Positions 4,278 to 62,575 of a stretch of 64,000 nucleotides of DNA are shown piece after piece (the stretch's first letter is position 1; every line of letters starts with the position of its first letter). A program made the position numbers and the translations under genes. The notes under the pieces were generated by a model. It worked only from the letters and a program-made list of their open reading frames with translations, did no database searches and had not been told where the DNA came from. The stretch comes from Methylomarinum sp. Ch1-1 (GTDB lineage Bacteria > Pseudomonadota > Gammaproteobacteria > Methylococcales > Methylomonadaceae): NCBI RefSeq assembly GCF_030717995.2, contig NZ_CP157743.1, positions 3,188,501-3,252,500 of the forward strand, read 5' to 3'.

Positions 4278-4339
4278 TCACGGTTGAATCGTTCAGGACC
4301 TCGTTGACCTGCATTTCGCATAGCGATGCGGACTACTTG

Positions 4340-4790
4340 CTTTTCGCGCCGAGGGCGGCGCTCCTACGCAAAGCACCGTCTTGCCTTCGGATGTGTCGAA
4401 CACCGTGAAGCGCATCAAAACCGGTGCGCTTCCTATCGCCAGCACACCCTACCCTACCCTACCCGCACCGGTAGGGCGGATCAAGCGTAGCGGATCCGCC
4501 AACGTAGGGCGGCTTCGCGAAGCAAGCCGCCAAAAACCGTCGCCGGAGGCAAAATTGGGGTCATTGTGGTATCCGGGCGCATTACCTGGCGGCGAATCAC
4601 CCTACGGTTGCATGCCAATGTAGCCTTGCCTTCGGATGTGTCGAACAGCGTGAAGCGCATCGAAACAAGGTGCTCTTCCTACCATCAGCACACCCACATC
4701 CGTGAGATGGATCTCGCACAGCGGATCCCCCTGGCGTATTTGTTGTTAAATTCTGTTTTGCCACTCATTCATTTACTGAGGTAGCCCTGC
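4340..4790. repeat. Intergenic repeat cluster (REP-like units)
   Basis: Contains two diverged copies of a roughly 70-bp unit (4380-4447 and 4625-4694), each starting ttgccttcggatgtgtcgaa and ending cagcacaccc. Four cctac repeats follow the first copy at about 4448-4467. Palindromic stretches include gcggatc/gatccgc and ggcggctt/aagccgcc. The phrase gagggcggcgctcctac at 4352-4370 recurs in altered form at about 17934-17953. No gene is supported in this gap. Confidence 0.6.
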
Positions 4791-4857
4791 CTTCCTCAGA
4801 TCAATCAAACCACTGTTGAGCGATTTCGGCCAAAATGAAAATATGGACTGACTGCGG

Positions 4858-5553: not shown

Positions 5554-5617
5554 AGCTCTCACCTATAGACTTGCTGCAATACCCTATCCCTGTCGCTGAA
5601 GCTTTATCGTAACAGGG

Positions 5618-7198: not shown

Positions 7199-7254
7199 GC
7201 GTGTATGAGGATACAATAAAACCTGTCATTATAACGTAATTTTCGGTCCCGTTC

Positions 7255-8301
7255 TTATTCGTATCCACGCGGATTGCTTTTCTGCCAACGCCAGGTATCG
7301 GCCATCATATCCCGCAAGTTTTTCTCCGCTTGCCAATGCAACCTCGTAGCGGCCAACTGGGGGTTGGCGTAACATTCGGCGATATCGCCGGCGCGCCTAG
7401 GCGCTATCTTGTAATTGATTTTTCGCCCGGTCACTTCGCTAAAAGCGTGGATCATATCCAGTACGCTATAACCGTTACCGGTGCCCAAGTTGAAGGGTTC
7501 GCAGACGGCTTCCGTCTTCTCCGTCGCCACCAGGAAGTCCAGCGCCTTGACATGGCCCTTAGCCAGATCAACGACATGGATGTAGTCTCTGACGCCGGTA
7601 CCGTCTTTAGTCGGATAATCATTGCCGAATACCGATAGTACCTCCAACTTGCCGATGGCGACCTGGGATAAATAAGGCATCAAATTATTCGGAATACCGT
7701 TCGGATCTTCTCCGATCAGACCGCTATGATGGGCGCCAACCGGATTGAAATAACGCAAGATGGCGATTTTCCAGGGATGCTCGACGGCATTCAATTCGTC
7801 GGACTGGGCGATATCGCGCAGAATTTCCTCGATGAACAATTTGCTTCTGCCGTAAGGGTTGGTGGCCTGCAATGGAAAGCCCTCCATGATCGGCACGCTG
7901 TCGGGATCACCGTATACGGTCGCCGAAGAACTGAACACCAGCTTATTGACATGATGCTCCTTCATCACCTCGACCAGAATCAAGGTCGAGTTGATATTAT
8001 TGTCATAATAACTGACCGGTTGCTGACAGGACTCGCCGACGGCCTTGAATCCGGCGAAATGAATCACCGCCGTAATATCGTGGGCCTGAAAAATGGACTG
8101 TAATTTGGCTCTATCCCTGACGTCGACCTGATAAAAAACGACGTCTTGGCCAGTAATCGTCTTGATGCGATTGATCGCCTCGACTTTGCTGTTGGATAAA
8201 TTGTCGACAATGACGACCTTAAACCCCGCCCCTAACAGCTCCACGCAAGCATGACTGCCGATATAGCCGGCGCCTCCGGTCACTAAGATTGTTTTACTCA
8301 T
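7255..8301 (-). CDS. galE: UDP-glucose 4-epimerase
   Basis: Extended-SDR epimerase that interconverts UDP-glucose and UDP-galactose for the Leloir pathway and for exopolysaccharide or LPS precursors. 348 residues, family length. NAD-binding GGAGYIGS near residue 8, catalytic Ser-Ala-Thr context (FSSSATVYGD), YGRSK active site, then YFNPVGAHHSGLIGEDPNGIPNN and the C-terminal GTGNGYSV region are all intact. It is followed by prfC on the same strand; no other sugar-nucleotide genes are adjacent. The start ATG follows a weak ribosome-binding site. Confidence 0.96.
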   Translation of the reverse strand: MSKTILVTGGAGYIGSHACVELLGAGFKVVIVDNLSNSKVEAINRIKTITGQDVVFYQVDVRDRAKLQSIFQAHDITAVIHFAGFKAVGESCQQPVSYYDNNINSTLILVEVMKEHHVNKLVFSSSATVYGDPDSVPIMEGFPLQATNPYGRSKLFIEEILRDIAQSDELNAVEHPWKIAILRYFNPVGAHHSGLIGEDPNGIPNNLMPYLSQVAIGKLEVLSVFGNDYPTKDGTGVRDYIHVVDLAKGHVKALDFLVATEKTEAVCEPFNLGTGNGYSVLDMIHAFSEVTGRKINYKIAPRRAGDIAECYANPQLAATRLHWQAEKNLRDMMADTWRWQKSNPRGYE

Positions 8302-9233: not shown

Positions 9234-9449
9234 GACCCGCCCGTTATCGATGTCACCTAGGCAATTTATTCAACATATATGACCGACAATAAAGCCGTAA
9301 AAATGCTGAATAGCTGCCATGCGGAAATAGCCTCATATAAAAGCAAGCAATATTCGTTCTCATTAAACTATCCCTTTATTTTATAAAGAAAAATATTTTT
9401 CCCAGATAAAAATATTGCGCCAAGTGTCAAATATTCCGACAACAAGCCA

Positions 9450-11114
9450 TTAAAAATGATAGTTCAACTCTATCCTGAAATGATCGTCTTCCCTTAAAAA
9501 ATAAGGACTGTCATAGGATGGAGAGCCAGCATACAAACGCATCTCCGCCTCTATCGTCCAACTATCTCCAAGCCTACGACTCGCCTCGATATTATAGAAT
9601 TTGCTGTTACTGGTCCTGTCGAACAACACCCCGGCGAGAATCTCGGTGCTTTGCGCATCATTGAAACCGAAACGCAACGCCGTAAGAAAATCGTCCTGAA
9701 AGGGAGCGTAGAAATTCCTAGAACCCCGGGTATCGTACATATATTCAAGCACGAAGCCTAAATCCAGGCCGCTTTCATACACATTGAACAAGGTATATTC
9801 GAAGCCCCCGACGGCGGCGAAAAAAGTCTTGCCCATGCCGGAGCGCACCATCGCTTCGAGCTTCCATAGCCAACTCTCGTGGGTCATTTGAAGGTCGAGG
9901 CTAGTTTGGTTGATGGTTTCGTAAAGCGGCACAATTTTACTGATCTGGCCGTTACGATCGAAAGTAGGAATGAAACGCGGCTCCCTACCCATACCGTAAA
10001 AATGGGAAATACCGATATCCCAGGCACCAAAATAATGCGCCCAGCGCACCGCATAAGACATATGCTTTTCCAGCCCGCTCCTGTCGAAGATCGCATCGCC
10101 GACCGCAATTTCCGGGATCAATCTGAAACGCCCTTCCACGCCGGAAAAAGTTCTTTCCCTGAATCCCGGCATCACGAACAAATCAATGGTCCCCCAATCA
10201 TTGATCAGTGCAAGATTGACCATCGGCTGGCCTAATTTATCCTCGGTGTCGGGATTTTCGACCAGGTCCGTTTGATTGATGATGTCGATCAGATGCAAAC
10301 CTTCGGCGACGCCCCAGAAAATCTTCCGAAAACCGGTTCTTAACTCCCAGTCTCGTTCCGCCATCAACCAAGTCAGCTCACGGATATCGAAATGAGTTCT
10401 ACGATTATCATGCTGGGAATAGCGATAGAATGGCACAAAGGCGAAACTTTGCCGACCGTCATCCCACGTCTTATAGAATTCCGCCTGAAAAACGCCCGAA
10501 ACATAATTATTATGTTGTTCCGGCGCCAAGCCTTCATGGATAAAGGCGAGATTTTCGACGCCGATGGCACCAGAAATATCCCAATCCGTTAATAGTTCCG
10601 GGATGGCTTCTTCGGCTTCGTCATCGTTCGCCCCTTGGGTTGGCTTCCGGGTATTAGCTACGAAAATAGGCGACTTCGCGGGCGTTTTCACCGTCAAAAA
10701 AACCGTTAATGTTTGCTGTCCGACCGACACTTCGGTTTGGCTGTTAAAACTGTCGATGACCACATCATCCTTCAGCTCGATGACGAGCCTGGCCTTATTG
10801 CCTGAATAATTGGCTGCGCGGACGGCAGTGACGAATGGATGCGCCGGCAATGATTGGGGCAAGTCCTCGCCTATGCCGGCGCCGGTAACATCGATGACCA
10901 GACGTTGCGGATTATGCAGCGGATGAATCTCAAATTGGCTGTTTTCAGGTAGGTTGAAATGAAAAACCGCCTTGTTTTCGGCCAGCACTTCCTGACGAGC
11001 CAGGATGACCTGCGCAGTCTGCGCAAACAAAGGCGCAGAAGCCAGCCACAAAACATTGAAGATCAGCGGCGTTAATGAACGCCTAGCCAAACGATTGAGC
11101 GCGTCCCCGATCAT
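9450..11114 (-). CDS. AMIN-domain outer-membrane beta-barrel protein
   Basis: 554-residue exported protein. After a signal peptide (cleavage likely after LFAQ, about residue 32) comes a beta-rich domain of about 100 residues with the AMIN pattern (HPLHNPQRLVIDVTGAG, then VRAANYSGNKARLVIELK). AMIN domains bind peptidoglycan or secretin-type proteins. From about residue 180 on, the sequence alternates aromatic and polar residues like a beta-barrel and ends in the outer-membrane C-terminal signature (ELNYHF). The ATG at 11114 is preferred over a TTG at 11150 because it gives a standard signal peptide and avoids overlap with the upstream gene. Function unknown; the cargo or partner is not indicated by neighbours. 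Confidence 0.7.
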   Translation of the reverse strand: MIGDALNRLARRSLTPLIFNVLWLASAPLFAQTAQVILARQEVLAENKAVFHFNLPENSQFEIHPLHNPQRLVIDVTGAGIGEDLPQSLPAHPFVTAVRAANYSGNKARLVIELKDDVVIDSFNSQTEVSVGQQTLTVFLTVKTPAKSPIFVANTRKPTQGANDDEAEEAIPELLTDWDISGAIGVENLAFIHEGLAPEQHNNYVSGVFQAEFYKTWDDGRQSFAFVPFYRYSQHDNRRTHFDIRELTWLMAERDWELRTGFRKIFWGVAEGLHLIDIINQTDLVENPDTEDKLGQPMVNLALINDWGTIDLFVMPGFRERTFSGVEGRFRLIPEIAVGDAIFDRSGLEKHMSYAVRWAHYFGAWDIGISHFYGMGREPRFIPTFDRNGQISKIVPLYETINQTSLDLQMTHESWLWKLEAMVRSGMGKTFFAAVGGFEYTLFNVYESGLDLGFVLEYMYDTRGSRNFYAPFQDDFLTALRFGFNDAQSTEILAGVLFDRTSNSKFYNIEASRRLGDSWTIEAEMRLYAGSPSYDSPYFLREDDHFRIELNYHF

Positions 11115-48258: not shown

Positions 48259-48762
48259 TTAATAACCCGGCGGCAGCAGCGGCTCTATGCCCTCGAATTC
48301 TGCCTTGGGGTGATGCTTGGTGATTATTTTACTGATTTCCTCGATACGTTCTTTGGCAATATCCACCATGACTAACAATTCACCTTGTTCGATCGCCTCT
48401 TCATACTTTTTAACTTTTGAATTGCCTACTTGTAATCCGGCCAATCCACTCATCATCGCGCCTATCGTCGCCCCATACACGAGTATGCCTAGAATAGGGC
48501 CGCCGGCGATCGCATAACCGGCAAAACGCAAGCCTACCAGCCCGGCCAATAAACCGGTGGTCGCACCTAGCGCAGCTCCCCGTTCCACGGCGGGAATAAA
48601 GTCGGTTTTTTGGAATTCGGTCGCTTCAGGCAAATCTTTTAATGGTGTATCCCGTTTGGCCAATATATGCAAATGTCGGTCTTCGATACCTTGCACACGT
48701 AATTCATCGACAATTTTATGGGTGATTTCGATATTCGGCGCCAAAAAATAGATTCTTCTCAT
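48259..48762 (-). CDS. DUF1269-like membrane protein
   Basis: 167-residue protein with an N-terminal nucleotide-like fold (RRIYFLAPNIEITHKIVDELRVQGIEDRHLHILAKRD), a central Gly/Ala-rich hydrophobic hairpin (GAALGATTGLLAGLVGLRFAGYAIAGGPILGILVYGATIG) and a C-terminal helix-strand region. This is the DUF1269 arrangement; function unknown. It is upstream of the oxidase gene but separated by about 300 bases. Between it and 50164 no other gene is supported, only repeats. Confidence 0.7.
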   Translation of the reverse strand: MRRIYFLAPNIEITHKIVDELRVQGIEDRHLHILAKRDTPLKDLPEATEFQKTDFIPAVERGAALGATTGLLAGLVGLRFAGYAIAGGPILGILVYGATIGAMMSGLAGLQVGNSKVKKYEEAIEQGELLVMVDIAKERIEEISKIITKHHPKAEFEGIEPLLPPGY

Positions 48763-49180: not shown

Positions 49181-49496
49181 ATACTAGCGCGCCACTATTT
49201 CTGCGAAAGCTTGTTTTGGGCATCCCAGCCCAAGCAAGCGGCAGAAATTACGTGGCGATTATTGCCTCCGGCGGCCCCGATTCGTCCTGCGTCCGTGCCA
49301 CTCCGCCATATCATCGTAAACTCGATGCTGGCTCCGTCGCACTCCCACAAATGACTTGACGGCGTTTCGGGAGACTTTTTATTTTGTCTCCACCTTCGCT
49401 CTCGCTTCGATTCCGACAAAACAATCGGCCCTACGCCTATCGGGGACTAAAAATCTTCACTTCGCTGGCGCTCCGTTTCCAAGATTTTCAGCGTAA
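49181..49496. repeat. Dispersed repeat, copy A (uninterrupted)
   Basis: About 310 bases nearly identical to 60258-60534 plus 62576-62602. It begins atactagcgcgccactattt and ends ctccgtttccaagattttca. It carries a 74-codon ORF on the minus strand, which is probably a by-product of the repeat rather than a gene. The second copy is interrupted by a group II intron. Copy A has 11 additional bases (49458-49468, cacttcgctgg) at the place where the intron sits in copy B. Confidence 0.9.
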
Positions 49497-49832: not shown

Positions 49833-49903
49833 CCGCAATATATGTATAACGATAAAGCTTTAAACAGATGACCTCTGTACGCATTCTTAAGAAAAATAAC
49901 TAG

Positions 49904-50060
49904 TAATTATTCAGCGTATTTTTATCAGAGGGAGTAGGCTATTGATTTATCGGGCTGTCTGCAACAGGACGTTGCAGTCAGAGCTTACATGGAAGTATTC
50001 ACGCGTCCCGAGAAATCAATGGTCTACTCCCTAAACCCTGAAAGATACTGAATAGTTACA
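49904..50060 (+). repeat. Inverted flanking repeat, left copy
   Basis: About 155 bases (from taattattcagcgtattttt to ctgaatagttac) that match the complement of 59124-59330. This copy lacks about 55 internal bases present in the right one. Its own ends (agggagta...tactccct) are inverted, so it is a MITE-like palindrome. With the right copy it brackets the amyloid-like cluster. Confidence 0.85.
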
Positions 50061-50164: not shown

Positions 50165-51481
50165 ATGGATTTGAATACATTTAATAATTCTCGCTACTTC
50201 CGAATGAATTGTTTAAACAAGGTGTTTTTTTGTTTATTGTCATTTTATGGCGGAAATGGCTATGCTGAAAACGACTTACAACGAGACAACCCATTAGAAC
50301 AATACCGCCAGCTATTTGCCGAACAACAAAAAGAATTCGAGAAACAACGTCGAATTATCGAAGAACAAGGCAAAGAGATCGAAATCCTTAAGGCTCGCAT
50401 CAATTCCTTAGCGGCGCAAAGCCCCTCGTCACAGCCACCTGCTACTGAAGCCAATAACGATCAAACCGTGATAGCCGCGACATCCCCCAAAAAGAAAATA
50501 GAAATACCGAGCAAACCGGTCGGCCAGGCGCCGCCTCAAGCGAGTGAAAAACCCCGCCCTCCCGAAATCCCAAGATTAAGCGAGACAGTCGGCGGCGTCT
50601 TAACCAGAAAAGGCAATCTAGTCATCGAGCCTGCATTGGAATACGCCTATACCGATAATAATCGAGTTTTTCTTGATGCATTTACATTTTTACCGGCAAT
50701 CGCTGTCGGCCTAATCGACCTGCGTGAAATTAAGCGCCATAGTTTCATTGGAAGCCTAGCGGCGCGTTATGGCATCACAGACAGATTGGAATTTGAATTC
50801 AGAGCTCCTTATGTATACCGCTCCGACAGTCAACGTTCTCGAGCCGTTAGCATTGGCGTCGGTGAAGATGAAATATTTAACGCCAGCGGCAATGATATTG
50901 GGGATCTGGAATTCGCCACTCGCTATCAACTCAATAGCGGCAGCGGCGGTTGGCCGATTTTTGTAGGCAACATGGTGGCGACGGTTCCAACCGGGACCAG
51001 TCCTTTTGAAGTTGATTTTGTGCAATCCACACCGGGTGCTGTTTTCCCCACTGAATTACCCACCGGCTCCGGTTACTTCAGCTTTCAACCCAGCATTACC
51101 GCGCTTTACCCTAGCGATCCAGGCGTCTTCTTCGGCAATCTGAGTTACAGCTACAATGCGGAAACCAATGAAAATGTCGGTAAGGTCGACCCAGGCGATG
51201 CAGTCGGCCTAAGTTTCGGCATGGGTTTCGCCCTGAATGCACGCTCTTCCTTTAGCCTGGGTTATTCCCATAAGCATGTGTTTGAATCCGAAATTAACGG
51301 CCAAACAGTGAATGGCAGTGAACTGGATATTGGTCAATTATTAATCGGCTATTCATTCAGATTCACGCCCAAAACGAACATCAATTTATCTTTGGGAATA
51401 GGCACGACAGAAGATGCTCAAGATATTAAACTCAATCTTAGACTGCCGATGACCTTCGACTTTTTGTCCCAGGCTTATTGA
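50165..51481 (+). CDS. FapF-like outer-membrane protein (coiled coil plus beta-barrel)
   Basis: 438-residue exported protein. Possible signal sequence around residues 14-35 (MNCLNKVFFCLLSFYGGNGYA; a start at 50204 would make it canonical). Residues 43-80 form a charged coiled coil (EQYRQLFAEQQKEFEKQRRI), then a Pro-rich linker to about 145. From 150 to the end it is a beta-barrel of alternating polar and aromatic strands (AYTDNNRVFLDAFTFLPAIAVG, LEFEFRAPYVYR). Coiled-coil-trimer plus barrel is the layout of FapF, the exporter of Pseudomonas functional amyloid. Adjacent genes (C39 peptidase, repeat proteins) support this. It is convergent with them, with an IS between. Confidence 0.65.
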   Translation: MDLNTFNNSRYFRMNCLNKVFFCLLSFYGGNGYAENDLQRDNPLEQYRQLFAEQQKEFEKQRRIIEEQGKEIEILKARINSLAAQSPSSQPPATEANNDQTVIAATSPKKKIEIPSKPVGQAPPQASEKPRPPEIPRLSETVGGVLTRKGNLVIEPALEYAYTDNNRVFLDAFTFLPAIAVGLIDLREIKRHSFIGSLAARYGITDRLEFEFRAPYVYRSDSQRSRAVSIGVGEDEIFNASGNDIGDLEFATRYQLNSGSGGWPIFVGNMVATVPTGTSPFEVDFVQSTPGAVFPTELPTGSGYFSFQPSITALYPSDPGVFFGNLSYSYNAETNENVGKVDPGDAVGLSFGMGFALNARSSFSLGYSHKHVFESEINGQTVNGSELDIGQLLIGYSFRFTPKTNINLSLGIGTTEDAQDIKLNLRLPMTFDFLSQAY

Positions 51482-51531
51482 CGGGACGATGCGAGATTAG
51501 TTTGTCTTCCCAAAGTTGAGAGCCCGCATTC

Positions 51532-51581
51532 CTTTATAGTGTTATGTCACGACAATCTTTATAGTGTTATGTCACGACAAT
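51532..51581. repeat. 25-bp tandem duplication
   Basis: Two adjacent identical units (ctttatagtgttatgtcacg plus acaat) lie 50 bases after the FapF-like gene. Confidence 0.9.
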
Positions 51582-51886
51582 ATTGCCCAATGTTTCATGA
51601 AGATGGCGGTGTAGGTAGCAGCGATAGCGAAACCCATCAATAGCCTAGACAGATGGGTTTCGCGTTGCTCTCGACAACCGCTCCCCGCGTTGCCCTACTT
51701 TTTGCATCCTTGCAGTCGCATCCATCCCCCCACAAGAAACCAGAATCACCCATGCAAATCAATTTATTACGGATTGTTAAGATTTTTTATCGTGTACAGA
51801 GCGGGAAATTATTGAAGCTTGAAAAGAAGCTCATATCGTAAAGACTCAGCGCAATTTAAAAGGGAGTCCCCTATCGTTTCTGCTTA

Positions 51887-51922
51887 TTGGAGTCTTTGTT
51901 GGAGTCTTTGTTGGAGTCTTTG
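51887..51922. repeat. 12-bp triple tandem repeat
   Basis: ttggagtctttg occurs three times without spacer. The surrounding 51482-52143 contains no supported gene. Confidence 0.9.
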
Positions 51923-52143
51923 TAAGTGCCAAGAAATTAGTCAGACGGTCAGATGCTTAGTCATTCCGGCATGAATTGCCGGAATCCTGTCACCATGGAT
52001 GATAGCTTATACAACTGAACTCATGACCAATCACCTACTCGAACAAAAATGCGGACTAGGACTACCGCAACCGCCATGACGGATGCGGTATAAATAAATC
52101 GATAACAGCTCGCAAAACTGACTTTTAAAAAATTGGCTCTCTA

Positions 52144-53518
52144 GGATTTCCCGTGGTAACCCCAATATCTAGTGTCCCGTAAACAAAGTCCGGCGTCCCT
52201 GCACATCCAGCCAAATATGCTGGAATAATCGGCCCAGGTTATAAATACCGTAGCAGCGGCGCTTGATCACTTTGATTTTGTTATTCAACCCTTCAACAAA
52301 CCCGCTGGTTTCACGCCGAATAAAATAGTTGGTGATGTGATCACGCCAGTTGTTTAATGTTGTGACAAAAGACGTGAAACAATCCAATCTCAATTCCGCA
52401 ATTCTATTCAGCCACTGCGTTAACGCCTGTTCGGCCTGCGCTTTGGTCAGGTTCTGTTCAAAGAGACCGGTTAGGACTTCACGTTGAACATAGACCTCTT
52501 TCAGTACCGGTGCCTGCCGGAATAACGCCAATAAAACGATTTGCTGTTCTTCGGTCAAGCGATTCCAAGGCTTTCGAAACGCCCACATGGCGCCTTTCAG
52601 TTGAGCATACTCCGATTCCGGTAAGGTTTGTTTCAGTTGCTTCATTTCGGCTTTGCGCGCTTTATCGGCACAGTCACGATAATGTTTGGCGACATGAAAG
52701 CGGTCTACCACAACCTGAGCGTTGGGTAGGGTTTCTTGAGCGGCATTACAGTAACCTTCGTTCATATCGATGCAGACACGACGGATGCTTTGGCATTGCC
52801 GAGGCGGCAGCGTCTTTAAAAAGGCCTTGACGGTTTCTTTTTTGCGATCCGGTAACACCGCCAAGAGATACTTTTCACGTTGCGCCGTCAGTCCGGACAC
52901 GATGACGACAAAATCCTTATGGCCTTTCTTCAAGGCAATTTCATCAATTCCAATCAACTCTAAATCGGGCACTGTCGACCAGTCCACTTGGCGCTGAATA
53001 TGCCGATCGAGGACACCTTCAATACAACCGATGCTGAGATTCCGTTTCAGGCTGACGTCACTGAGCGTGCTATTGACCAACTCGCGTAAAATCCAATTCT
53101 CATAGGCTTTGGTATGCGGACTCTTGGGATCGTACCACTCGCAACGTTGCGTTGTCGTTGGCCCTTTGTCACAGTAGGGACATTGAAAACGCTTCGGCCG
53201 GATGCGAATCCAGACCGGTCGGTCAAAAATCGGCAGATGCCGTAGCGTAATCGCTTTGTCGTAACCGTGAAATTTGTCGATCGTCCGTCCGCAGTGACGA
53301 CATACCGCCGTATCACGGGTACTGACAACAGTGATCACCAGACCCTTATCGGTTTGTTCGTATTTTTCGACGCTAACATTGGGCAAGTCTAACGGTATTT
53401 GTATCTGCGGTTGATTCATTGGCATTCAAAAAAAAGTCGTGTCGTTCTGGTATTTTACAAGAGGCTCCGGTTGCGGTCTTCTAACATACTATATGTTGTG
53501 GTCTCCCACGGGAAATCC
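52144..53518 (-). mobile_element. ISL3-family insertion sequence
   Basis: 1375-bp element bounded by 13-bp perfect terminal inverted repeats (ggatttcccgtgg at 52144-52156, complement at 53506-53518) with looser similarity further in. It encodes one full-length transposase. No 8-bp target duplication is visible at the edges (gctctcta left, ggaagaac right), suggesting a rearranged or old insertion. It sits between convergent genes of the amyloid-like cluster. Confidence 0.85.
52169..53425 (-). CDS. ISL3-family transposase
   Basis: 418-residue transposase. N-terminal zinc-finger pair (CRHCGRTIDKFHGYDKAITLRHLPIF, then CPYC) and helix-turn-helix region, then the ISL3 DDE core: GIDEIALKKGHKDFVVIVS (first Asp), VCIDMNEGYCNAAQETLPNAQVVVDRFHVAKHY (second Asp), and ETSGFVEGLNNKIKVIKRRCYGIYN (Glu region). 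The frame is complete, so the transposase could be functional. Confidence 0.93.
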   Translation of the reverse strand: MPMNQPQIQIPLDLPNVSVEKYEQTDKGLVITVVSTRDTAVCRHCGRTIDKFHGYDKAITLRHLPIFDRPVWIRIRPKRFQCPYCDKGPTTTQRCEWYDPKSPHTKAYENWILRELVNSTLSDVSLKRNLSIGCIEGVLDRHIQRQVDWSTVPDLELIGIDEIALKKGHKDFVVIVSGLTAQREKYLLAVLPDRKKETVKAFLKTLPPRQCQSIRRVCIDMNEGYCNAAQETLPNAQVVVDRFHVAKHYRDCADKARKAEMKQLKQTLPESEYAQLKGAMWAFRKPWNRLTEEQQIVLLALFRQAPVLKEVYVQREVLTGLFEQNLTKAQAEQALTQWLNRIAELRLDCFTSFVTTLNNWRDHITNYFIRRETSGFVEGLNNKIKVIKRRCYGIYNLGRLFQHIWLDVQGRRTLFTGH

Positions 53519-53560
53519 GGAAGAACCAAAAAATTACCACAAAAACAAATAAATGAAGAA

Positions 53561-54052
53561 TTATTTAACCATTGTCGGCAAAATATAATTTCGAAAAGCG
53601 CCCGCCATATCATGGTTAATATTTTTCAAATTACTTATGTCTATATTAATGGTATTGACTGTGCGTATCACCTGGTTATCCAAGTTATTCTGAATAACGG
53701 AATTCAGCATCGAATGAGTTAAGTCGGCGGCAAAATTTAATGAACCATTTTGAATCAGAGGGATATTTTCAGGCAATTTTAAATAAGACGAAAATGATTC
53801 TACGCCGTTGCGATAAATTATTTTTTCAAAGCTAAAGTCAACCACCATTCCATTAGCCAGAGCGAAGCCTCCTCGCAACGCATCCAATTCGGCATTTGAA
53901 ACTTTACGCCAGTCAGGCCTGATTCGGCTCTCCGGATAATCCCCATCATCCGCTTCGGCAAAGGTAATCGATCCCAACAAACTCAACAGCAATGCAACTC
54001 CGGCGGGTTTGATCAATTTAATTCGAAAAAAACGGTATTTGTATGCTTTCAT
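53561..54052 (-). CDS. Small exported protein with double-glycine motif, amyloid-like cluster
   Basis: 163 residues from ATG 54052 (aggaga 9 bases upstream). A signal peptide ends near FAEADD (about 32). Then comes VSNAELDALRGG at residues 51-62, a close match to bacteriocin-type double-glycine leaders (LSxxELxxIxGG), followed by FALANGMVVDFSFEKIIYRNG. The C-terminal part contains SVIQNNLDNQVIRTVNTINIDI, repeated in pattern in the protein at 54789. It may be a secreted cofactor of the fibre (FapA/FapE-like position) processed by the adjacent peptidase. Function unproven. Confidence 0.6.
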   Translation of the reverse strand: MKAYKYRFFRIKLIKPAGVALLLSLLGSITFAEADDGDYPESRIRPDWRKVSNAELDALRGGFALANGMVVDFSFEKIIYRNGVESFSSYLKLPENIPLIQNGSLNFAADLTHSMLNSVIQNNLDNQVIRTVNTINIDISNLKNINHDMAGAFRNYILPTMVK

Positions 54053-54065
54053 CTTGATCACTCTC

Positions 54066-54758
54066 CTATAAATCGAAATTGCCCGGCTGCAGCAGGTTAA
54101 AATCAGCCAAACTTGACCTGTCTACCGCAGTGCCTAAGGGCGCCTTGACCCTGAGAGCCCATTCGCGTCGATCCTGAAAATGATTCGCCGCCAGCTCCTG
54201 TTTATCATGAATTAAAAACAGGATGCGATGATTCCAGATCTCTGAAAATTTATCTCGGTCTATCGCCTTAACGCCGACGGCAGGATCGCCTACCAAAACC
54301 TCGGTATCACTCACCCCTTTAATAAGAACGAAATGCATATAGCCATTATTATTGATAATGGTTATGGCCGGGACATTAGCCTTCGTCAGCTGATCCAAGT
54401 TTATCCTAAAGCCGTCGGAGCTATAGCCCTTTCTCTCCAGATAGAGCTTCATATCCAACAATGAAAAGCCTAATTTTTTTATTTTTTCCTGATCGCCATG
54501 CCGATACATATCAAGAAAAACATGTTGTTCATTGACATTGTCTTCGTAGTGAAAAGTCAGCAAGCTGGCCAATGCCGCCGAACCACAGCTAAAGTCGAAT
54601 TGCTGCCTGTAGACAGTTTTAAACAAGCGTTCTTTAAAACTCGTTACCGAAACATTGTAATTACCGCCGCCGGCTATGCCATTCAGCGCGATACTGCCTG
54701 CGCATGCCGGCATCACGGGCAACACAGCCAGCACATAGGCTAAAATCAGATGTTTCAT
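54066..54758 (-). CDS. C39-family peptidase (FapD-like)
   Basis: 230-residue exported cysteine peptidase. Signal peptide to about residue 20, then the C39 active site: oxyanion Gln Q52, nucleophile C58 (QQFDFSCGSAALASLL), His H142 (YMHFVLIKG) and Asp D158 (VGDPAVG). No ATPase or membrane exporter domain follows, unlike ABC bacteriocin exporters, matching the free-standing FapD peptidase. An ideal ribosome-binding site (caggaggtggtgt) precedes ATG 54758. It is flanked by two proteins with double-glycine motifs, likely substrates. Confidence 0.85.
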   Translation of the reverse strand: MKHLILAYVLAVLPVMPACAGSIALNGIAGGGNYNVSVTSFKERLFKTVYRQQFDFSCGSAALASLLTFHYEDNVNEQHVFLDMYRHGDQEKIKKLGFSLLDMKLYLERKGYSSDGFRINLDQLTKANVPAITIINNNGYMHFVLIKGVSDTEVLVGDPAVGVKAIDRDKFSEIWNHRILFLIHDKQELAANHFQDRREWALRVKAPLGTAVDRSSLADFNLLQPGNFDL

Positions 54759-54788
54759 ACACCACCTCCTGACAGTCGAATTAACACG

Positions 54789-55145
54789 CTAAGGCGTGAT
54801 CGTCACATTCACTATCGTCGAGTCCTGAATAATGACCTGATTTCCGGTATTTTGAATTACCGAGATGAAGCCACTAGAGCCGGCAAAGGAACCGTTATCG
54901 ATCATATTGAAGCCATTGGTATTATTTACCGCCACGTTATCAGCCATATAGGCCCCCACAGACATTTTGTTAAGCGTCGTCACATCAACTACGCCCCCAC
55001 GCCCCCGCGCCTCGTCCAACTCGTTTAACAACACCGGTTCAACATTCGGCAGCGCATTCTCTCGAACCACATCCGCGCGCAGATTGCTTTGACTTGACAA
55101 CAAAACCAGAAGAGATAACAGGTATTTTTTTAATCGTATTTCCAT
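54789..55145 (-). CDS. Small exported protein with double-glycine motif, amyloid-like cluster
   Basis: 118 residues from ATG 55145 (gagg about 8 bases upstream). Signal peptide to about LRAD (24), then NELDEARGRGG with Gly-Gly at 50-51, and GAYMADNVAVNNTNGFNMIDNGS. The C-terminus SVIQNTGNQVIIQDSTIVNVTI parallels the IQN...NQVI pattern of the 53561 protein, so the two are distant paralogues. It lies between the peptidase and the repeat proteins; a role as fibre-associated or minor subunit is inferred. Confidence 0.6.
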   Translation of the reverse strand: MEIRLKKYLLSLLVLLSSQSNLRADVVRENALPNVEPVLLNELDEARGRGGVVDVTTLNKMSVGAYMADNVAVNNTNGFNMIDNGSFAGSSGFISVIQNTGNQVIIQDSTIVNVTITP

Positions 55146-55240
55146 CACAAACTCCTCCTGAATTAATGAACCTGTAACTGCCGGTGAACATGTTGTCCAC
55201 CGGCATACATACCAACCAAGTTAAATCGACAGCAATCAGC

Positions 55241-56206
55241 TTATGGTGCAGGCTGAGCAACATTAACATTACCCTGGAATGACACTTGTTGTTGTGTCAG
55301 AGCCGAAGCCCCAGAGTTTTGAACGTTTTGGCTGATGCCTGCGAAGCTGCTGAAAGATCCTTCTATGCTGTTATTGGCGGGAATTCCGGCAACCAAAGTA
55401 GGTATGCCATCAGCGCCTTGGCCGGTCACACTGCCCATCAACTCCGAGTTATTGACCGAATAAGTCGCTGTCGCATTGCCGACGCCGGCAACCGCATTGC
55501 CCTTGCCATACGATTGGACATTGGTTTCAGTGTAGGTCGAGGTGGCATTTCCGGCATTGGATGATGCCGCCCCATCTCCAGAGGACTTTGCATAATTGTT
55601 GGTCGAATTGTCGCTGTTGTCCGACGTAGCATTACCGGTGCCATTCACCGCAGCGGCCTGATCCTTGGCTTTTACAAAGCTATCATTTTTGGAAATATTT
55701 GTGGTATTTCCGCTATCGTTGGTGCTGCTGTTGGTATAGCTGAAGCTCTTATCCTCAGTTTCATTGATCGTTGAGGAATATGAATTGCCGCTATTGTTAG
55801 TACTGCTATCCGTATAGCTGAACGTCTTGTTCTCGGTCTCATTTTTAGTATAAGACTCGCTATTACCGCTGTCGTTGGTGCTGCCGTCCGTGAAACTGAA
55901 GCTCTTATTTTCGGTTTCACTGGTGGAGATATTTTTACTGAGCGTCTTGGTGACATTCACCGTTTCAGCGTTATTGCTATAATTCTGACTGCTGTCATTA
56001 ATTGTCTTGCTGGCGCTGCCGCCGTTTGCTGTCGAATTTTCGCTAGCCGAGGCGTTAGCTTTTCCATAAGCATCCGACGTCACCGAAGCGCTTTGCGTAT
56101 CAACTACCTCGGTTGCTGTGTTGGTTGGATTTGCCCAGACATTTGACGAGGCGCCCAAAATCAGCGCAATACTTGCGGCCAATACTGTTTTATTTTCTGT
56201 AATCAT
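55241..56206 (-). CDS. Repeat-rich secreted protein, candidate amyloid subunit (copy 1)
   Basis: 321 residues from ATG 56206 (atggag upstream). Signal peptide cut after SNVWA (about 26). Ser/Thr/Asn/Gly-rich mature protein with three consecutive units of about 26 residues between residues 95 and 175, each shaped (K)SFSYTxSSTNxSGN followed by a variable S/T/N stretch and NETExK. Then a Gly/Asn/Ala-rich domain (AAAVNGTGNATSDNSDNSTNN) and a conserved C-terminal tail (SFAGISQNVQNSGASALTQQ). Low in charge and hydrophobics, like FapB/FapC fibre proteins, but sequence identity is unknown. Paralogous to the gene at 56316. Confidence 0.6.
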   Translation of the reverse strand: MITENKTVLAASIALILGASSNVWANPTNTATEVVDTQSASVTSDAYGKANASASENSTANGGSASKTINDSSQNYSNNAETVNVTKTLSKNISTSETENKSFSFTDGSTNDSGNSESYTKNETENKTFSYTDSSTNNSGNSYSSTINETEDKSFSYTNSSTNDSGNTTNISKNDSFVKAKDQAAAVNGTGNATSDNSDNSTNNYAKSSGDGAASSNAGNATSTYTETNVQSYGKGNAVAGVGNATATYSVNNSELMGSVTGQGADGIPTLVAGIPANNSIEGSFSSFAGISQNVQNSGASALTQQQVSFQGNVNVAQPAP

Positions 56207-56315
56207 GATACTAACTCCATCAATTGTAATGACGATATGGAAATCGAAGAATGACGCCTGTGTAAGGTTCATCCTGCTTCCAATATTTGCCTACACGATA
56301 AAATGAGGCACCTGT

Positions 56316-57269
56316 TTATTGGCCGACATTCACGTTGCCTTGAAACGACACTTGCTGCTGGGTCAAAGCGGCGGCGCCTGAGTTCTGTACGTTCTGACTA
56401 ATGCCGGCAAAGCTATTAAATGAGGTCGTGATGCTATTGTTTACGGGAGTTAATTCTGCCCCACCTGGTATACCGGCCACACCCATGCCTGAAACTTCAC
56501 CGCTTAATACCGAGTTATTGACCGAATAAGTCGAATTGGCGTCGCCGACTCCGGCAACCGCATTGCCACGCCCTTCTGAAGCCACATCAGTGCTGGTATA
56601 AACGGAAGATGCATCTCCAGCATTTGAAGAAACGGCGCCGTCGCCGTAGGCTTTGGATTTGTTGTTGATCGAGTGGTCGCTGTTATCGGACAAGGCGTCG
56701 CCGTTGCCATTGACTACGGCCGCCTGATCTTTGGCCTTGGCATAGCTTTTATCGATATTGATCGTTTTGCTGTTGTTACTGTCGTTACTGCTGCTATCGC
56801 TTTTCGATTTATTCAGCACAGTCGAATAAGACTCGGAAATCGTTTCAGAGTTGTTACTATCGTTTGTACTGTTATTTGTTTTAGTTTTACTGATGGTTTC
56901 CGTTTCCGTTTTGGAAATGGTTTTAATGTTATTACTGAAGTTAACACTGTCATCAGTTTTTGTTTTAGTGATGGTTTCAGATTCCGTTTGAGTAAACGTT
57001 AAATCCTTGGATTTGCTTTTCGTGATGTTGGTCGTATTGCCGCTATCGTTGGCGCTGCTGTTGGCATAATCGACGGTTACCGTACCGCCTGTTGCGGTGC
57101 TGCCTTCGGTCGCGGATGCATTTGCTGCGCCGTCAGAAATCGAATCGACATAGGCGGTCTGGCTAGTAGCGCTGCCGGCTTCATTAGTCGGATTCGCCCA
57201 AGCACTTCCGGCTGAACTCAATACTAGGGTGATACTGGCGGCAAGTAATGATTTATTGAAATAAAACAT
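56316..57269 (-). CDS. Repeat-rich secreted protein, candidate amyloid subunit (copy 2)
   Basis: 317 residues from ATG 57269 (aaggag 8 bases upstream). Same plan as its neighbour: signal peptide (cut after GSAWA, about 25), then NPTNEAGSATSQT. Units of about 26 residues follow (TETETISKTKTNNSTNDSNN, then SKSDSSSNDSNNSKTINIDKS) and AVVNGNGDALSDNSDHSINN. It shares the SFAGISQNVQNSGAAALTQQ tail, then QVSFQGNVNV. First gene of the minus-strand block, so likely the main subunit with the strongest promoter. The gene may have duplicated to give two fibre subunits. Confidence 0.6.
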   Translation of the reverse strand: MFYFNKSLLAASITLVLSSAGSAWANPTNEAGSATSQTAYVDSISDGAANASATEGSTATGGTVTVDYANSSANDSGNTTNITKSKSKDLTFTQTESETITKTKTDDSVNFSNNIKTISKTETETISKTKTNNSTNDSNNSETISESYSTVLNKSKSDSSSNDSNNSKTINIDKSYAKAKDQAAVVNGNGDALSDNSDHSINNKSKAYGDGAVSSNAGDASSVYTSTDVASEGRGNAVAGVGDANSTYSVNNSVLSGEVSGMGVAGIPGGAELTPVNNSITTSFNSFAGISQNVQNSGAAALTQQQVSFQGNVNVGQ

Positions 57270-57332
57270 GTCTTTAACTCCTTCTAAATTTATAAGGTCA
57301 CCAGAACAACTGTCTGATGGGTCGGTATGCGA

Positions 57333-57352
57333 GATAATTATCATTACGATAC
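57333..57352 (-). promoter_or_regulatory. Fur-box-like sequence
   Basis: gataattatcattacgatac about 65-85 bases before the subunit ATG (57269). On the minus strand it contains taatgataat, the core of the Fur hexamer repeat. Only about two thirds of the 19-base consensus agrees. Confidence 0.2.
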
Positions 57353-57902
57353 CCGCAATTATCTAACGCGTAATCAGTGTCGCCAATACGACCTTAAATT
57401 TCCATAAACGGGACATTAAATTTATCTAAAAAATCGAGCATTTATTTTATCTGTGATTGTTAACCTCCACCGGCAAAACATGGGCTTCCACGTCATCGTG
57501 AGCCGACACTACCAGGTAAAAATAACTGATGCTTGACATTAACAGAGAGTCTGCCATCTGATATCTTCTGAATGTCATGATTTTTTACAGGATTTTTCTA
57601 GCATTATCGACACCATAAGCCTGATCTTTCCTTTTAAAATAACAAATATCCGTTTGATATCTTTCACTTATAGATCGACTTACCCATCAGGTCATCAGTT
57701 ATATTAACTCTCTTGAGTGTCATTTTTTTTTACAGTCGTTAGTTGTCTCGCGGCTAATATAATTCCTTTAGTCGACTATTTTTCTTCTGACATGGGGGCA
57801 CAAAATTCTTACAAAAAGAGTAACGATGTCCTGTTGCAAGCACATTAAGACGATAATTCAGACCGTAAGACACACAATTAATGACATGGAGCATCCTGTA
57901 AT

Positions 57903-57918
57903 TGGCATGAGCTGTGCT
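57903..57918 (+). promoter_or_regulatory. Possible sigma-54 promoter
   Basis: tggcatgagctgtgct has the GG and GC elements exactly 10 bases apart as in -24/-12 promoters, with one mismatch in the TTGC part. It lies about 210 bases before the regulator ATG. Confidence 0.2.
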
Positions 57919-58126
57919 AAATATTTAAATACCTTATGATTTATAGACTTTTGAGATCACTAAAAGCCGGAAAAACTATTAACAATCGATAGCACTATTT
58001 TTCTGGAGAAAAGACTTATGCCAAGACAACGTTTTTGAATCGGCTTGTTATCATCCGAATTTCATTGGCCCCAATAGGACACAAATTAAATTTTTGATCG
58101 ACCAGCTGCAACCGAGGATAGAAGCT

Positions 58127-58999
58127 ATGCTGTTAAATCGCCATATATTATTAATATCCGACGATAATTATATTCTGGGCATGATCAAAGGGTATTGCGT
58201 TGCCTACGACTTAACATTAGAGGAATTATCGAATCACGAAATATTACAAGAAAATAATATAAATAAAAGCGTTAAGCTGATTATTGTTGATTTGCGTAAA
58301 CAAAAATCATCACTGACAAAACCCAACCTTAATCTATTACATCAAATCAGTGATGGGCATCATATACCGGTCTGTGCAATCCTAGACCCCTTGCAAGATC
58401 AACTGAGCAAAGATGCCCCATGGATAGAATGCTTTTTGAAAGAACCGATATTGGAACAGTTAGGTAACTACCTGCGAACCCAGTTTCATCATAAGCCTCA
58501 TTCTTTTCCCGAACGAAGGCGTAAAGATAGAAGGACTAATACGGACCGACGCCGATTTTTTTCCTCCTCGCAACAAGCAAGTCCGTCTCATGCTTATGTC
58601 CATAGCTCACCTTTTTCCGTTCCGGAAAAAAACGACAATACTTATTTTCTTGGCCCTTTTGAAATCAACACAAACTGCAAATCTGTTTATTTGCAAGACA
58701 AGAATCTGGGCTTAACGTGCAAAGAGTTTAGTCTTTTCAGTTTACTTGCAGCTGATGTTGAACGCGCCTTCACAGCGGATGAAATCATTCAGCACCTGTG
58801 GCCCGGAACCGACCGAGCCAATAAATCCGACCTTTACCAATATATGCACCTGTTACGCAAAAAAGTCGAAAAAGATCCCGCCCGCCCTTATTGGATAATC
58901 AATGTCAAAGGCGTTGGATATAAGCTTAATATAACGCCTGCATTGAAAGAGAGCGGGCAAACACTCGAATATCTGAATTACAAACAAGCATCATCTTGA
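58127..58999 (+). CDS. Orphan OmpR-type response regulator of the amyloid-like cluster
   Basis: 290 residues from ATG 58127. N-terminal receiver-like domain (1-120) keeps the acidic pair (LLISDDN), the phospho-acceptor Asp (LIIVDLRKQ) and the Lys (ECFLKEP), but the usual Ser/Thr strand reads VCAILD. A basic linker (about 135-155, ERRRKDRRTNTDRRR) follows. The C-terminal winged helix is OmpR/PhoB-like (LTCKEFSLFSLLAADVERAF, QYMHLLRKKVEKDPARPYWIINVKGVGYKL). No kinase gene is adjacent. Divergent position suggests it controls the fibre genes. Confidence 0.8.
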   Translation: MLLNRHILLISDDNYILGMIKGYCVAYDLTLEELSNHEILQENNINKSVKLIIVDLRKQKSSLTKPNLNLLHQISDGHHIPVCAILDPLQDQLSKDAPWIECFLKEPILEQLGNYLRTQFHHKPHSFPERRRKDRRTNTDRRRFFSSSQQASPSHAYVHSSPFSVPEKNDNTYFLGPFEINTNCKSVYLQDKNLGLTCKEFSLFSLLAADVERAFTADEIIQHLWPGTDRANKSDLYQYMHLLRKKVEKDPARPYWIINVKGVGYKLNITPALKESGQTLEYLNYKQASS

Positions 59000-59123: not shown

Positions 59124-59330
59124 GTAACTATTCAGTATCTTTCAGGGTTTAGGGAGTAGACCATTGATTTCTCGGGACGCGTGAATACATCCATGTAAGC
59201 TCTGGCTGCAACGTCTGACCGTCAGGGACGATGGAAATGCAGATTTTGCAGGAGCAAAAAACCTGCCTGTTGCAGACAGCCCGATAAATCAATAATCTAC
59301 TCCCTCTGATAAAAATACGCTGAATAATTA
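59124..59330 (-). repeat. Inverted flanking repeat, right copy
   Basis: 207-base full copy of the repeat at 49904-50060 in opposite orientation (starts gtaactattcagtatctttc, ends cgctgaataatta). The extra 55 internal bases (about 59215-59270) share a core with 62786-62894. It ends 14 bases before the small membrane gene stop. Confidence 0.85.
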
Positions 59331-59344
59331 CAAAAGAAGATGCC

Positions 59345-60241: not shown

Positions 60242-60259
60242 TTCACCCAGCACCTAAAT
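60242..60259. repeat. 18-bp inverted repeat, left arm
   Basis: ttcacccagcacctaaat; its exact complement is at 62637-62654. Together they bracket repeat copy B and the intron. The same motif is in the nested repeat at 2857-2872. Confidence 0.85.
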
Positions 60260-60534
60260 ACTAGCGCGCCACTATTTCTGCGAAAGCTTGTTTTGGGCAT
60301 CCCAGCCCAAGCAAGCGGCAGAAATTACGTGGCGATTATTGCCTCCGGCGGCCCCGATTCGTCCTGCGTCCGTGCCACTCCGCCATATCATCGTAAACTC
60401 GATGCGGGCTCCGTCGCACTCCCACAAATGACTTGACGGCGTTTCGGGAGACCTTTTATTTTGTCTCCACCTTCGCTCTCGCTTCGATTCCGACAAAACA
60501 ATCGGCCCTACGCCTATCGGGGACTAAAAATCTT
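60258..60534. repeat. Dispersed repeat, copy B (intron-interrupted), left part
   Basis: 277 bases nearly identical to copy A at 49181-49457. The remainder of the copy (cgctccgtttccaagatttt...) resumes at 62576-62602 after the group II intron. Confidence 0.9.
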
Positions 60535-62575
60535 ATCGGGTCAGAGGGAGCCGCAGCTCCCGTCTGCCCACAGAACCGTGCGTACGGGTCCGTACACGGC
60601 TCCTCACGTAAGACGAATCCATTGAGATACCTCAAACCAATGCGCTAACTGTCGGTCGGATCGTATTTCCTGTCCCATCAGGTTGATAAACCAACTGTTC
60701 GGATAGGCTCTCGTCACCGCTCGGGTTGCGGAAAGCGCCCACCGTTTCTTGTTGGAAAAGACCGTCTGGGCGGCTTGCTTTCGCGGTACGCCCCGTTTGA
60801 CCAGGTTTCGATACAGATGCTGTTTCCGCTTCTGCTGACTCACCAGCCTCGCTCGTAATCGTCGCCGGATATGGGCTTCGATTTTCCTCAGCTGGGACGG
60901 GTATTGGGTCAAGCTGTAGTAGTTGGCCCAGCCCACGTACCACTGATTAAGGTCGGCCAGGGTGTGATTCAGCGTCTGATGGGTGCCTCGCGGCGTTAAG
61001 GCTTTGACTTTACTCATGGCCGTTTGCAGGGCTTTGTGCGCAATCGCTACCGTCCCGTCGACCACGGTAAAGCCTAAGAACTTTACCGCATCGGATTTAG
61101 CCACTTGGCTTTTCTCCCGGTTCACCTTCAGTTTCAGCTTGTTTTCGATGAATTGGCTGACTTTCTCCATCACTCGCTCCGCCGCCTTTTGCGACCCAAC
61201 GAAAATGTTGCAGTCATCGGCAAACCGACAAAATTCCAGTCCGCGCTTTTCCAATTCCTGATCCAGTTCGTCCAGAACAATGTTGCTCAGCAAGGGCTTA
61301 ACGGTCCGCCCTGCATCGCACCTTCCTTGTTGGGGTTGACGACGCCGTTGATCATCACGCCACTGCGCAGCATCATGCCGATCAAGCGCAAGATGCGTTT
61401 GTCGGCGATCCGTTGCCCCATCCGGCCAATCAGCCGGTCGTGGTGAATACGATCGAAGAACTTCGATAAGTCGATGTCCACCACATAGGGTTTACCGCTT
61501 TCCACGATCCGTTGCGCCGCTTGCACCGCTTGGTGTTGACTCCGTCCCGGACGAAAGCCATAGCTGTGCCCTGAAAAATGCGGATCAAAGATCGGTTCCA
61601 GCAACAATTTCAGGGTCGTCTGTACCACACGATCCCGCACCGTCGGTATGCCGAGCAGACGTACGCCCTTGCCGCCAGGCTTAGGTATTTCCACTCGGCG
61701 AACCGGCGAGGGTTGGTAAGTCCAATCCTGCAATTCCTGTTGCAGACGACTTAGCTCTTCGTCTAAACGGGCTTCAAAGTCGGCTATCGTGACCCCGTCA
61801 ATGCCGGGTTTGCCTTTGTTCTTCTTCACCTGTTCAAATCCCGCACTCAAATACAACGTTGAGCACAGTTGGTCAAAGAGTCTTGGTTCCTCAATCAATC
61901 GGTCATGTTCGTTCATTTCACTTTTTTTTCTCTCTCTTGCAATGGCCTTTCTTCAATCTCGCGCAATCGATTCGTTCACTGTTTACGACGCGAATAGTCG
62001 ATTGCTCCTGTCAGGCTGATCTCAGACCCTCAGTTTATAATCAACGGCCATGGCCGCTTACGTGTTCCACCCTTCACCTCCAACTTCCTGTCACTGGTTC
62101 GATGTTTTTCCCTCAGCTATGTCACCATAACCTCATCGGCATCGAACTTTACGATTACTACGGCTTCATCTGCAGACCCTCGGTTCATCACGTCAGCATT
62201 ACTGCTGCGCTTAGGGCTTAAGGTGTCGCAGTTACACCGACCCGAAGCCGACGGCCCTTCACTGGGTAAGATAGTCAACTTTATCTCGGTCCACCTACCT
62301 TCAATACAACAGCAAGTTACGGTGAGAATATCGGACTTCGGTGGACGCGGGCACCTCATCCTCTTGCTGCCGCCTTACGAAGGTTCACTCTCGTTTAGGT
62401 GACCGATTCGGCTAGAGCTTCTTTCAGATTCCGCATTGGCTCTCGGTAACCGTGCTTCCCTGTTGGGTAGCTACCGGGAGTTTCTTTGGACACCCTTGCT
62501 TTCGCCTACTTCTTCCCTTCTCACAGGGCAAAGGCTGGACTTTCACCAGCTAGCTGACTACCATGCCAGTCACAC
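60535..62575 (-). mobile_element. Group II intron
   Basis: 2041-base intron on the minus strand. The 5' end reads gtgtgactgg (at 62575, GUGYG consensus). Domain V is the 30-base hairpin at 60573-60602 (gagccgtgtacgg...cgcacggttc), and the 3' end reads acccgat (AY) at 60535. RNA domains I-III lie at about 61920-62575, and the reverse transcriptase at 60604-61916. It has no HNH endonuclease, typical of group IIC. It sits in a repeat next to an aaaatctt/aagatttt hairpin. Confidence 0.85.
60604..61916 (-). pseudogene. ltrA: Group II intron reverse transcriptase/maturase, frameshifted
   Basis: N-terminal frame (61287-61916) encodes RT motifs 0-4 (KNKGKPGIDGVTIADF, RPGRSQHQAVQAAQRIVE, YVVDIDLSKFFDRIHHDRL) and breaks off at GGPLSPC-stop. 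The next frame (to 60604) carries LLSNIVLDELDQELEKRGLEF, the catalytic RFADDCNIF (a YADD variant) and the maturase X domain. A single missing base at about 61292-61293 (LSPC instead of LSPLLSN) would restore a protein of about 437 residues. Unless corrected by frameshifting or an error in the sequence, the enzyme is inactive. Confidence 0.9.

Follow-up and report, generated by a model that had tools for sequence, protein, structure and literature searches.

A methane-eating bacterium predicted to carry an unnamed system related to, but separate from, Pseudomonas Fap

The stretch of DNA analysed here (hereafter the window) spans 64,000 nucleotides of the 4.77 Mb genome of the methane-eating bacterium Methylomarinum sp. 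Ch1-1 (contig NZ_CP157743.1, positions 3,188,501 to 3,252,500). Between its positions 50,165 and 58,999 lies a set of genes, designated R, A, D, E and F together with the regulatory gene Reg, and on the sequence comparisons described below this R-A-D-E-F system is a separate, unnamed relative of the Fap functional-amyloid system of Pseudomonas. Its genes and features are as follows (signal peptides and heptads in the window proteins were judged by eye):

50165..51481, plus strand: F, a FapF-like outer-membrane barrel of 438 residues (NCBIfam FapF, FapF structures in the PDB, and an alignment of 13 sequences including that of the window)
52135..53527, minus strand: an ISL3 insertion, outside the system (transposase at 52169-53425; limits set by eye)
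53561..54061, minus strand: E, a FapE-like exported protein of 166 residues (comparison of the E family with the FapE profile)
53867..53902, minus strand: the double-glycine leader of E, VSNAELDALRGG, followed by F (phenylalanine); predicted D cleavage site (R[GA]G[FLI] conservation)
54066..54758, minus strand: D, a C39 peptidase with a signal peptide (Pfam Peptidase_C39, NCBIfam FapD, catalytic residues C58, H142 and D158)
54789..55148, minus strand: A, a small exported protein of 119 residues, candidate nucleator or minor subunit (profile comparisons)
54993..55028, minus strand: the leader-like motif of A, LNELDEARGRGG (L...(RG, RA or SGR) pattern)
54804..54908, minus strand: the single Fap-like imperfect repeat of A (profile comparison; limits set by eye)
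55241..56206, minus strand: R2, a low-complexity N/S/T-rich exported protein (C-terminal imperfect repeat at about 55262-55372)
56316..57269, minus strand: R1, a paralogue of R2 (C-terminal imperfect repeat at about 56319-56441)
58094..58999, plus strand: Reg, an OmpR-type winged helix with a receiver-like N-terminal part judged by eye, divergent from R1

All of the parts listed in a preliminary description of this DNA (barrel, C39 peptidase, two small proteins, two repeat paralogues and regulator) were recovered at these positions. The full open reading frames (ORFs) of R2 and R1 extend over 55241-56272 and 56316-57344 on the minus strand, and their likely starts at ~56206 and ~57269 were judged from relatives. 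The earlier remark that the gene order departs from that of fap needs correction: the R-R-A-D-E order corresponds to FapB/C-D-E, and a fapF separate from the operon, like the loss of fapA, is a known deviation of Fap systems (according to passages of PMC3792158). No FapA was recognised by eye in the window; the presumed FapA of a Fap locus used for comparison (L082) matched no model. Scans for promoters and terminators were uninformative, with 14 sites against 18.6 in shuffles and 12 against 9.7, respectively.

The Fap-like character of the machinery is well supported by the matches of F to FapF and of D to FapD, as well as by the relation between the E and FapE profiles presented below. F, in which a signal peptide, a heptad-like N-terminal stretch and a Pro-rich linker can be discerned by eye, matches the NCBIfam FapF model (NF058560) with an E-value of 2.6e-45 (155 bits) and aligns over residues 148/149-431 with FapF chains of known crystal structure (5o67, 5o65 and 5o68; E 3.8e-31 for 5o67), while its match to NCBIfam FilC is weaker (E 3.9e-20, 72.5 bits, below the cut-off of 630). 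The FapF score of F also falls below the cut-off of that model, which at 700 bits is a very strict threshold that none of the 369 genomes of the class passes, Fap loci included. D matches Pfam Peptidase_C39 (E 2.1e-20), NCBIfam FapD (NF058616; E 1.4e-40, 139 bits, below the 330-bit cut-off) and NCBIfam FilB (E 1.7e-37, 129.3 bits, below the 475-bit cut-off), and its closest named matches are records from Methylobacter and Methylomicrobium with 68-70% identity. F is a homologue of FapF and D one of FapD, yet both miss the curated cut-offs.

The search against Fap profiles that the preliminary description had proposed was therefore positive for F and D, at sub-threshold scores, and blank for the remaining proteins: R1, R2, A and E gave no match to any NCBIfam Fap model at E<=1, FapB and FapC included for R1 and R2, and E did not match the FapE model NF058559. 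These absences are informative because the proteins of L082 do match the FapE (6.6e-33), FapB (6.9e-29) and FapC (6.1e-53) models, all below the cut-offs. Beyond Fap, E had no Pfam match and only a weak one to NCBIfam SrfC_fam (E 0.0049, 16.3 bits, cut-off 500), and A matched no family in the Pfam or NCBIfam scans. PDB sequence searches returned two chance-level matches for A (E 0.68 and 0.86) and no match for R2.

Relatives of D were found in 13 of 61 genomes, that of the host among them, and in 12 named loci. These relatives served to build profiles for A, D, E, F, R and Reg, which were run over the ORFs surrounding FapF-family matches; these matches occur at E<=1e-10 in 39 of the 369 class genomes (45 places, of which 36 were taken). 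The loci were sorted into an R-A-D-E-F class of 46 (the window, L021-L037, L088, L096-L110 and 12 from the new-genome test described below), Fap loci (L080-L087, L089-L095) and Fil-like D-F pairs (L040-L046, L111-L115); L038, L039, L047 and L048 stayed unclassed. The genes A, D and E are contiguous and on the same strand in all 44 R-A-D-E-F loci that have the three, a count that is not independent, as part of the loci were classed by the presence of these same genes; in L101 and L110 only F was found. This contiguity argues that the grouping in the window is not due to chance. The position of F is more variable: among the 42 loci with both genes it lies downstream of D on the same strand in 21, convergent with it in 19 and upstream in 2, so the exporter on the opposite strand, correctly described for the window, is no oddity. 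L144 carries a tandem R-A-D-E R-A-D-E duplication alongside a single F (1988-7370), and L039, in genome G035, holds only fragments of A (64 residues) and D (60 residues) at 9388-10047, apparently a decayed copy of the block.

In the new-genome test, places were picked by the score of F alone in 398 genomes of the phylum, 37 of which have a match at E<=1e-20. Twelve of the 13 new places with an F of at least 289 bits have A-D-E beside F or within ~2.5 kb, the other (L146) having F only, and none of the 13 has a Fap-repeat match at E<0.01. Conversely, five of the 28 places listed with an F of at most 223 bits were taken (L149-L153), and all five encode FapB/C-type proteins with a Fap-repeat match of 1e-19 or better. 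The block is present in several families of the window's class, and beyond that class in L148 (genome G735, one of the 12) and in L032, whose record is titled Alphaproteobacteria. Within the family of the host its distribution is patchy: 16 of 151 genomes, counting the host's own, have an F of at least 360 bits, and the five other genomes in the genus have none.

In a tree built from 58 F proteins, from which L042 (split F) and loci without F were left out, each of the two classes falls to one side of a branch with 100/99 support, R-A-D-E-F with 32 rows and Fap with 15, whereas the 11 Fil-like rows are ungrouped in the best tree (two changes; a single origin is compatible). In line with this separation, two genomes hold both systems, G072 (L087 Fap, L088 R-A-D-E-F) and G499 (L149 Fap, L142 R-A-D-E-F), which argues that Fap and R-A-D-E-F are distinct. 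The proposal of a divergent surface-fibre system thus survives as a Fap-like one with its own F clade, but not as Fap in the curated sense.

Close inspection of the small exported proteins points to a predicted site of action for D. The proteins encoded downstream of 45 D genes all contain R[GA]G[FLI] (RGGF in 41) and all fit the pattern [LM]..xR[GA], while RGG[FLI] turned up in 79 of 6600 shuffles of E and in 13 of 919 other ORFs; for L031, whose E spans two ORFs, the one bearing the motif was counted. In the window protein, VSNAELDALRGG-F sits ~25 residues past the Sec signal. Of the 45 A proteins, encoded upstream of D, 40 show L...(RG, RA or SGR) between residues 21 and 115 (604 of 9000 shuffles), and a C-terminal QN motif is present in 28 of 45 E and 39 of 45 A proteins. 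The split E of L031 (2879-3371) consists of two overlapping ORFs with the leader in the first, and may be a broken gene or a sequencing error. The E of L098 (6924-7442) has a sub-threshold match over residues 99-114 (E 0.011, 15.7 bits, cut-off 20) to Pfam RHIM, an amyloid-forming motif.

The double-glycine leaders of bacteriocins follow the consensus E-8, L-7, G-2, G-1, which the E leader VSNAELDALRGG appears to fit; the A leader is looser. In all 14 Fap loci examined, the gene occupying the FapE position carries a homologous motif, RG[RK][YF], e.g. LSDEELGGLRGRY (L092, in which D is absent, was excluded), and small proteins with ELASTEGG, EMDKVEGK or AMDQVTGG lie near Fil-like D genes in a pattern search carried out with no control. 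All 58 D proteins, drawn from the three kinds of locus, keep the C39 Cys, His and Asp, and among the D residue columns that differ between classes none could be assigned to the difference between G and R/K in the leaders. Given the conservation of the E leader in 45 of 45 proteins and of the motif in all of the FapE-position genes, D probably cleaves E, and A, at the leader, and FapD probably cleaves FapE at the homologous motif; the cut may fall either after RG or after RGx.

These predictions bear on a question raised in the Fap literature. The active-site Cys of FapD is required for FapC secretion, no peptides were recovered from the first ~70 residues of FapE, and complete processing of the N-terminus was seen for FapE only (PMC5557850). 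Passages of the same paper, by Rouse et al., describe Fap proteins as without canonical C39 sequences, note GG and GA motifs in FapE that suggest processing, and treat the target of FapD as unclear; a 2018 review states that the substrate is yet to be determined (in a section of PMC6173800), and one from 2025 names FapE and FapF as the proteins that FapD 'is thought to' process (in a section of PMC12822426). The almost canonical double-glycine leader of a related family would offer a concrete candidate site in FapE, e.g. LSDEELGGLRGRY.

R1 and R2 are 54% identical and contain diverged 78-nucleotide units (26 residues). Across the loci the passenger part of R varies, with SDN/(DNS)n repeats in many and Gly-rich sequence in others, while the C-terminus is conserved and carries an imperfect repeat (consensus NSISGSFAGAAGITQVAQNSGANSLVQQNVSVQANV) that is present as one copy in 44 of 46 R proteins and as four in the other two (L098 and L105). 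Composition (N, S, T, D, G and Q over 45%) was one of the criteria by which R proteins were chosen; contig-end fragments in L036, L104 and L139 are not among the 46, nor is the second A/R-like protein that L105 encodes at 6458-7444. Because the profile was built from C-terminal copies only, the inner copies in L098 and L105 are independent finds; in these two proteins the four repeats stand in tandem, resembling a multi-repeat amyloid subunit. By comparison, published screens, which needed a FapB/C repeat match, counted three repeats in 1031 of 1094 FapC genes (in the part of PMC12392863 concerned). The four-repeat subunits (L098 4893-5804, L105 3058-3963) form a possible bridge from FapC to the single-repeat R, and that of L098 shows a faint match to NCBIfam FapB (E 0.081).

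To relate the families to each other, profiles were compared in single hhalign pairs, each scored against the best of 40 column shuffles and not as a database search, after the exclusion of 5 of 33 E and 5 of 35 A sequences. The A family scores 71.5 with the E family (best shuffle 20.2), 49.4 with the R C-terminus (13.5), 45.8 with FapE (14.9) and 28.5 with the Fap repeat (14.4). E scores 48.5 with FapE (14.9); the 12 FapE sequences in these tests had been chosen by a pattern containing RG and are circular as regards the leader motif, for which the position-based check gave the 14 of 14 reported above. In addition, 8 of the 10 Fap-repeat matches at E<=1 among 2111 locus ORFs are A-labelled. 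Three Fap loci (L080 13267-13581, L082 13249-13668 and L090 4630-4968) encode, close to FapB, a further small protein that has a leader-like motif (e.g. EDSELHEISGKG) and an N/Q-rich end; by their likeness, judged by eye, these are possible counterparts of A.

Reg matches Pfam Trans_reg_C (E 1e-15) with no receiver-domain match in the Pfam scan, and its phospho-acceptor Asp is not conserved in a 9-sequence alignment. The regulator previously described is indeed present and divergent from R1 in the window, but Reg was recognised in just 9 of the 46 loci (the window and 8 others).

Overall, we consider it probable that the block encodes a surface-fibre assembly system related to Fap and forming its own clade, in which D cleaves E and A, export proceeds via F, and R joins the fibre or a coat. 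All components would leave the cytoplasm via Sec, after which periplasmic D would strip E, and probably A, of a second leader of the bacteriocin type, with the cut in E at RGG or beside it. This cleavage would license export through the FapF-like barrel F, and once outside, the FapE-like E and the A protein with its one imperfect repeat would anchor and nucleate the structure. R would join as a low-complexity passenger through its Fap-like C-terminal repeat, polymerising into a possibly amyloid fibre or a coat, and Reg probably controls the operon. Of this scheme, the gene content, homologies, linkage, conserved motifs and separate F clade are observed, whereas cleavage, export route, nucleation, polymerisation, amyloid nature and regulation are inferred from them.

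Several results, besides the partial circularity of the contiguity count, weigh against this scheme. R and the Fap repeat are weakly related (a score of 20.8 at 31% probability, with the best shuffle reaching 11.5), and the relation becomes marginal with a narrower R set (15.6 against 14.1), while E shows no relation to the Fap repeat by profile comparison and no signal with the R C-terminus (10.3 against 10.0). When single sequences were scored with the Fap-repeat profile, the 95th shuffle percentile was exceeded by 26 of the 35 A proteins, 7 of the 23 R proteins and 2 of the 33 E proteins. The leader pattern is missing from the searched stretch in 5 of 45 A proteins (in one of them, that of L105, it occurs farther along, outside that stretch), and since in FapE the second G of the E leader is replaced by R or K, the cut may lie elsewhere. 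'Sister of Fap' would also be a loose term, as some Fil-like rows stand beside either clade on weak branches (84/60, 92/75).

The main competing explanation, doubtful and still to be taken seriously, is a non-amyloid hydrophilic coat or adhesin, with the low-complexity part of R forming a brush and its C-terminal repeat serving as a docking or secretion tag. The range of R passengers, from (DNS)n to Gly-rich above a conserved C-terminus, would suit a brush, and a single repeat per subunit may not stack like FapC; the four-repeat R proteins of two loci and the related repeat in A argue the other way. We regard it as unlikely that the block is simply a divergent Fap operon, with R1/R2 as FapB/FapC, E as FapE and A as an add-on. 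The common D-E-F core in similar order, the E-FapE relation and the known deviations of Fap operons noted above would all fit, and as the L082 Fap proteins also score under the NCBIfam cut-offs, these alone are insufficient against it. Nevertheless, R, A and E lack the Fap model matches that L082 proteins give, the F clades are separate, G072 and G499 carry both systems, and nearly all R proteins have one repeat.

Less probable still is that D matures E and A to yield secreted peptides, either of a bacteriocin-like kind or acting as signals, with F as the outlet. The predicted system shares with the C39 ATP-binding cassette (ABC) bacteriocin exporters the C39 domain and the leader pattern, but here the peptidase is free-standing, the precursors are Sec-signalled and no ABC transporter was found among the 10 proteins scanned; the relation of E to FapE and the linkage to R also speak against peptides. 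Most improbable is that F is a phenol/MetA (COG4313-like) uptake channel unrelated to its neighbours: it does match Pfam Phenol_MetA_deg above the cut-off (E 5.6e-6, 27 bits against 22), yet the FapF matches are far stronger and F is linked to A-D-E. A surface fibre or coat assembled by a Fap-type route is, from these comparisons, the most likely function.

Set beside known systems, the R-A-D-E-F block would share with Fap a FapF-type barrel, a free-standing C39 peptidase, a FapE-like protein with a homologous leader motif, exported subunits with imperfect repeats and, in many loci, the D-E-F order. It differs from Fap in subunits that mostly consist of one C-terminal repeat and a low-complexity passenger rather than three repeats, in the extra small A protein, in the form of the leader (R[GA]G[FLI] in E, RG[RK][YF] in FapE) and in the OmpR-type regulator of some loci, with no FapA recognised and a separate F clade. 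The Fil system of Acinetobacter (FilB C39 peptidase, FilC) has in common the pairing of a C39 peptidase and a barrel, with double-glycine-like small proteins near the Fil-like D-F pairs; those loci, which we assume to be Fil, were seen without the A-D-E-R block, and their F proteins fall outside the R-A-D-E-F clade. Curli (csg) shares the concept of a nucleator, a major subunit and a dedicated outer-membrane pore, but none of the 10 scanned proteins matched a csg family.

The surroundings of the system contain several mobile elements. The ISL3 element between E and F (~52135-53527) is flanked by the 8-bp sequence AAAAAATT at 52127-52134 and 53528-53535. The idea that it had inverted F was dropped, as the duplications are intact, as in a simple insertion, and F is convergent in many loci anyway. 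Inverted repeats resembling miniature inverted-repeat transposable elements (MITEs) bracket the system at 49903-50059 and 59124-59331 (arms of 66 and 92 nucleotides, 97-98%); they were dropped as special marks of a cassette because the genome contains at least 43 matches to a 157-base MITE-like query, of which 40 cover nearly its full length (40 of the 230 candidates were scored). The locus is also flanked, at 49181-49457 and 60258-60534, by a direct repeat of 277 bp (99% identity, copies 11 kb apart), one copy bordering a group II intron at 60535-62446 (minus strand, two Rfam matches) whose reverse-transcriptase-like product, recognised by eye, is divided between two overlapping ORFs (60604-61293 and 61287-61916) and possibly broken. 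On the other side, 48259-48762 (minus strand) encodes a small protein with sub-threshold matches to the stress-protein families YflT and DUF1269.

No description of the R-A-D-E-F block was found in titles and abstracts of the open-licence literature searched, among the matches listed. The 2018 review, in the section concerned, reports five further phyla in which homologues of fapD and fapF are colocalised and does not describe the block there (PMC6173800), and the 2025 review presents Fap as evolutionarily fixed, with exactly three repeats almost universal, on the basis of screens that needed a FapB/C repeat match (in a section of PMC12822426). Because of that requirement, such screens would probably miss the R-A-D-E-F class, as judged by our own repeat profile and not by the published models. 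We see an even chance that the block represents a widespread, undescribed and mostly single-repeat class of Fap-related fibres, and that the C39 peptidases of Fap, R-A-D-E-F and Fil-like loci all act on dual leaders composed of a Sec signal and a double-glycine motif. If so, the dual leader would be a general maturation code of this secretion route, and FapE would be named as the substrate of FapD. With related machinery and mostly one repeat (four in two loci) against the near-universal three of Fap, the R-A-D-E-F class would provide a natural set for asking what minimum number of repeats a secreted fibre subunit requires.

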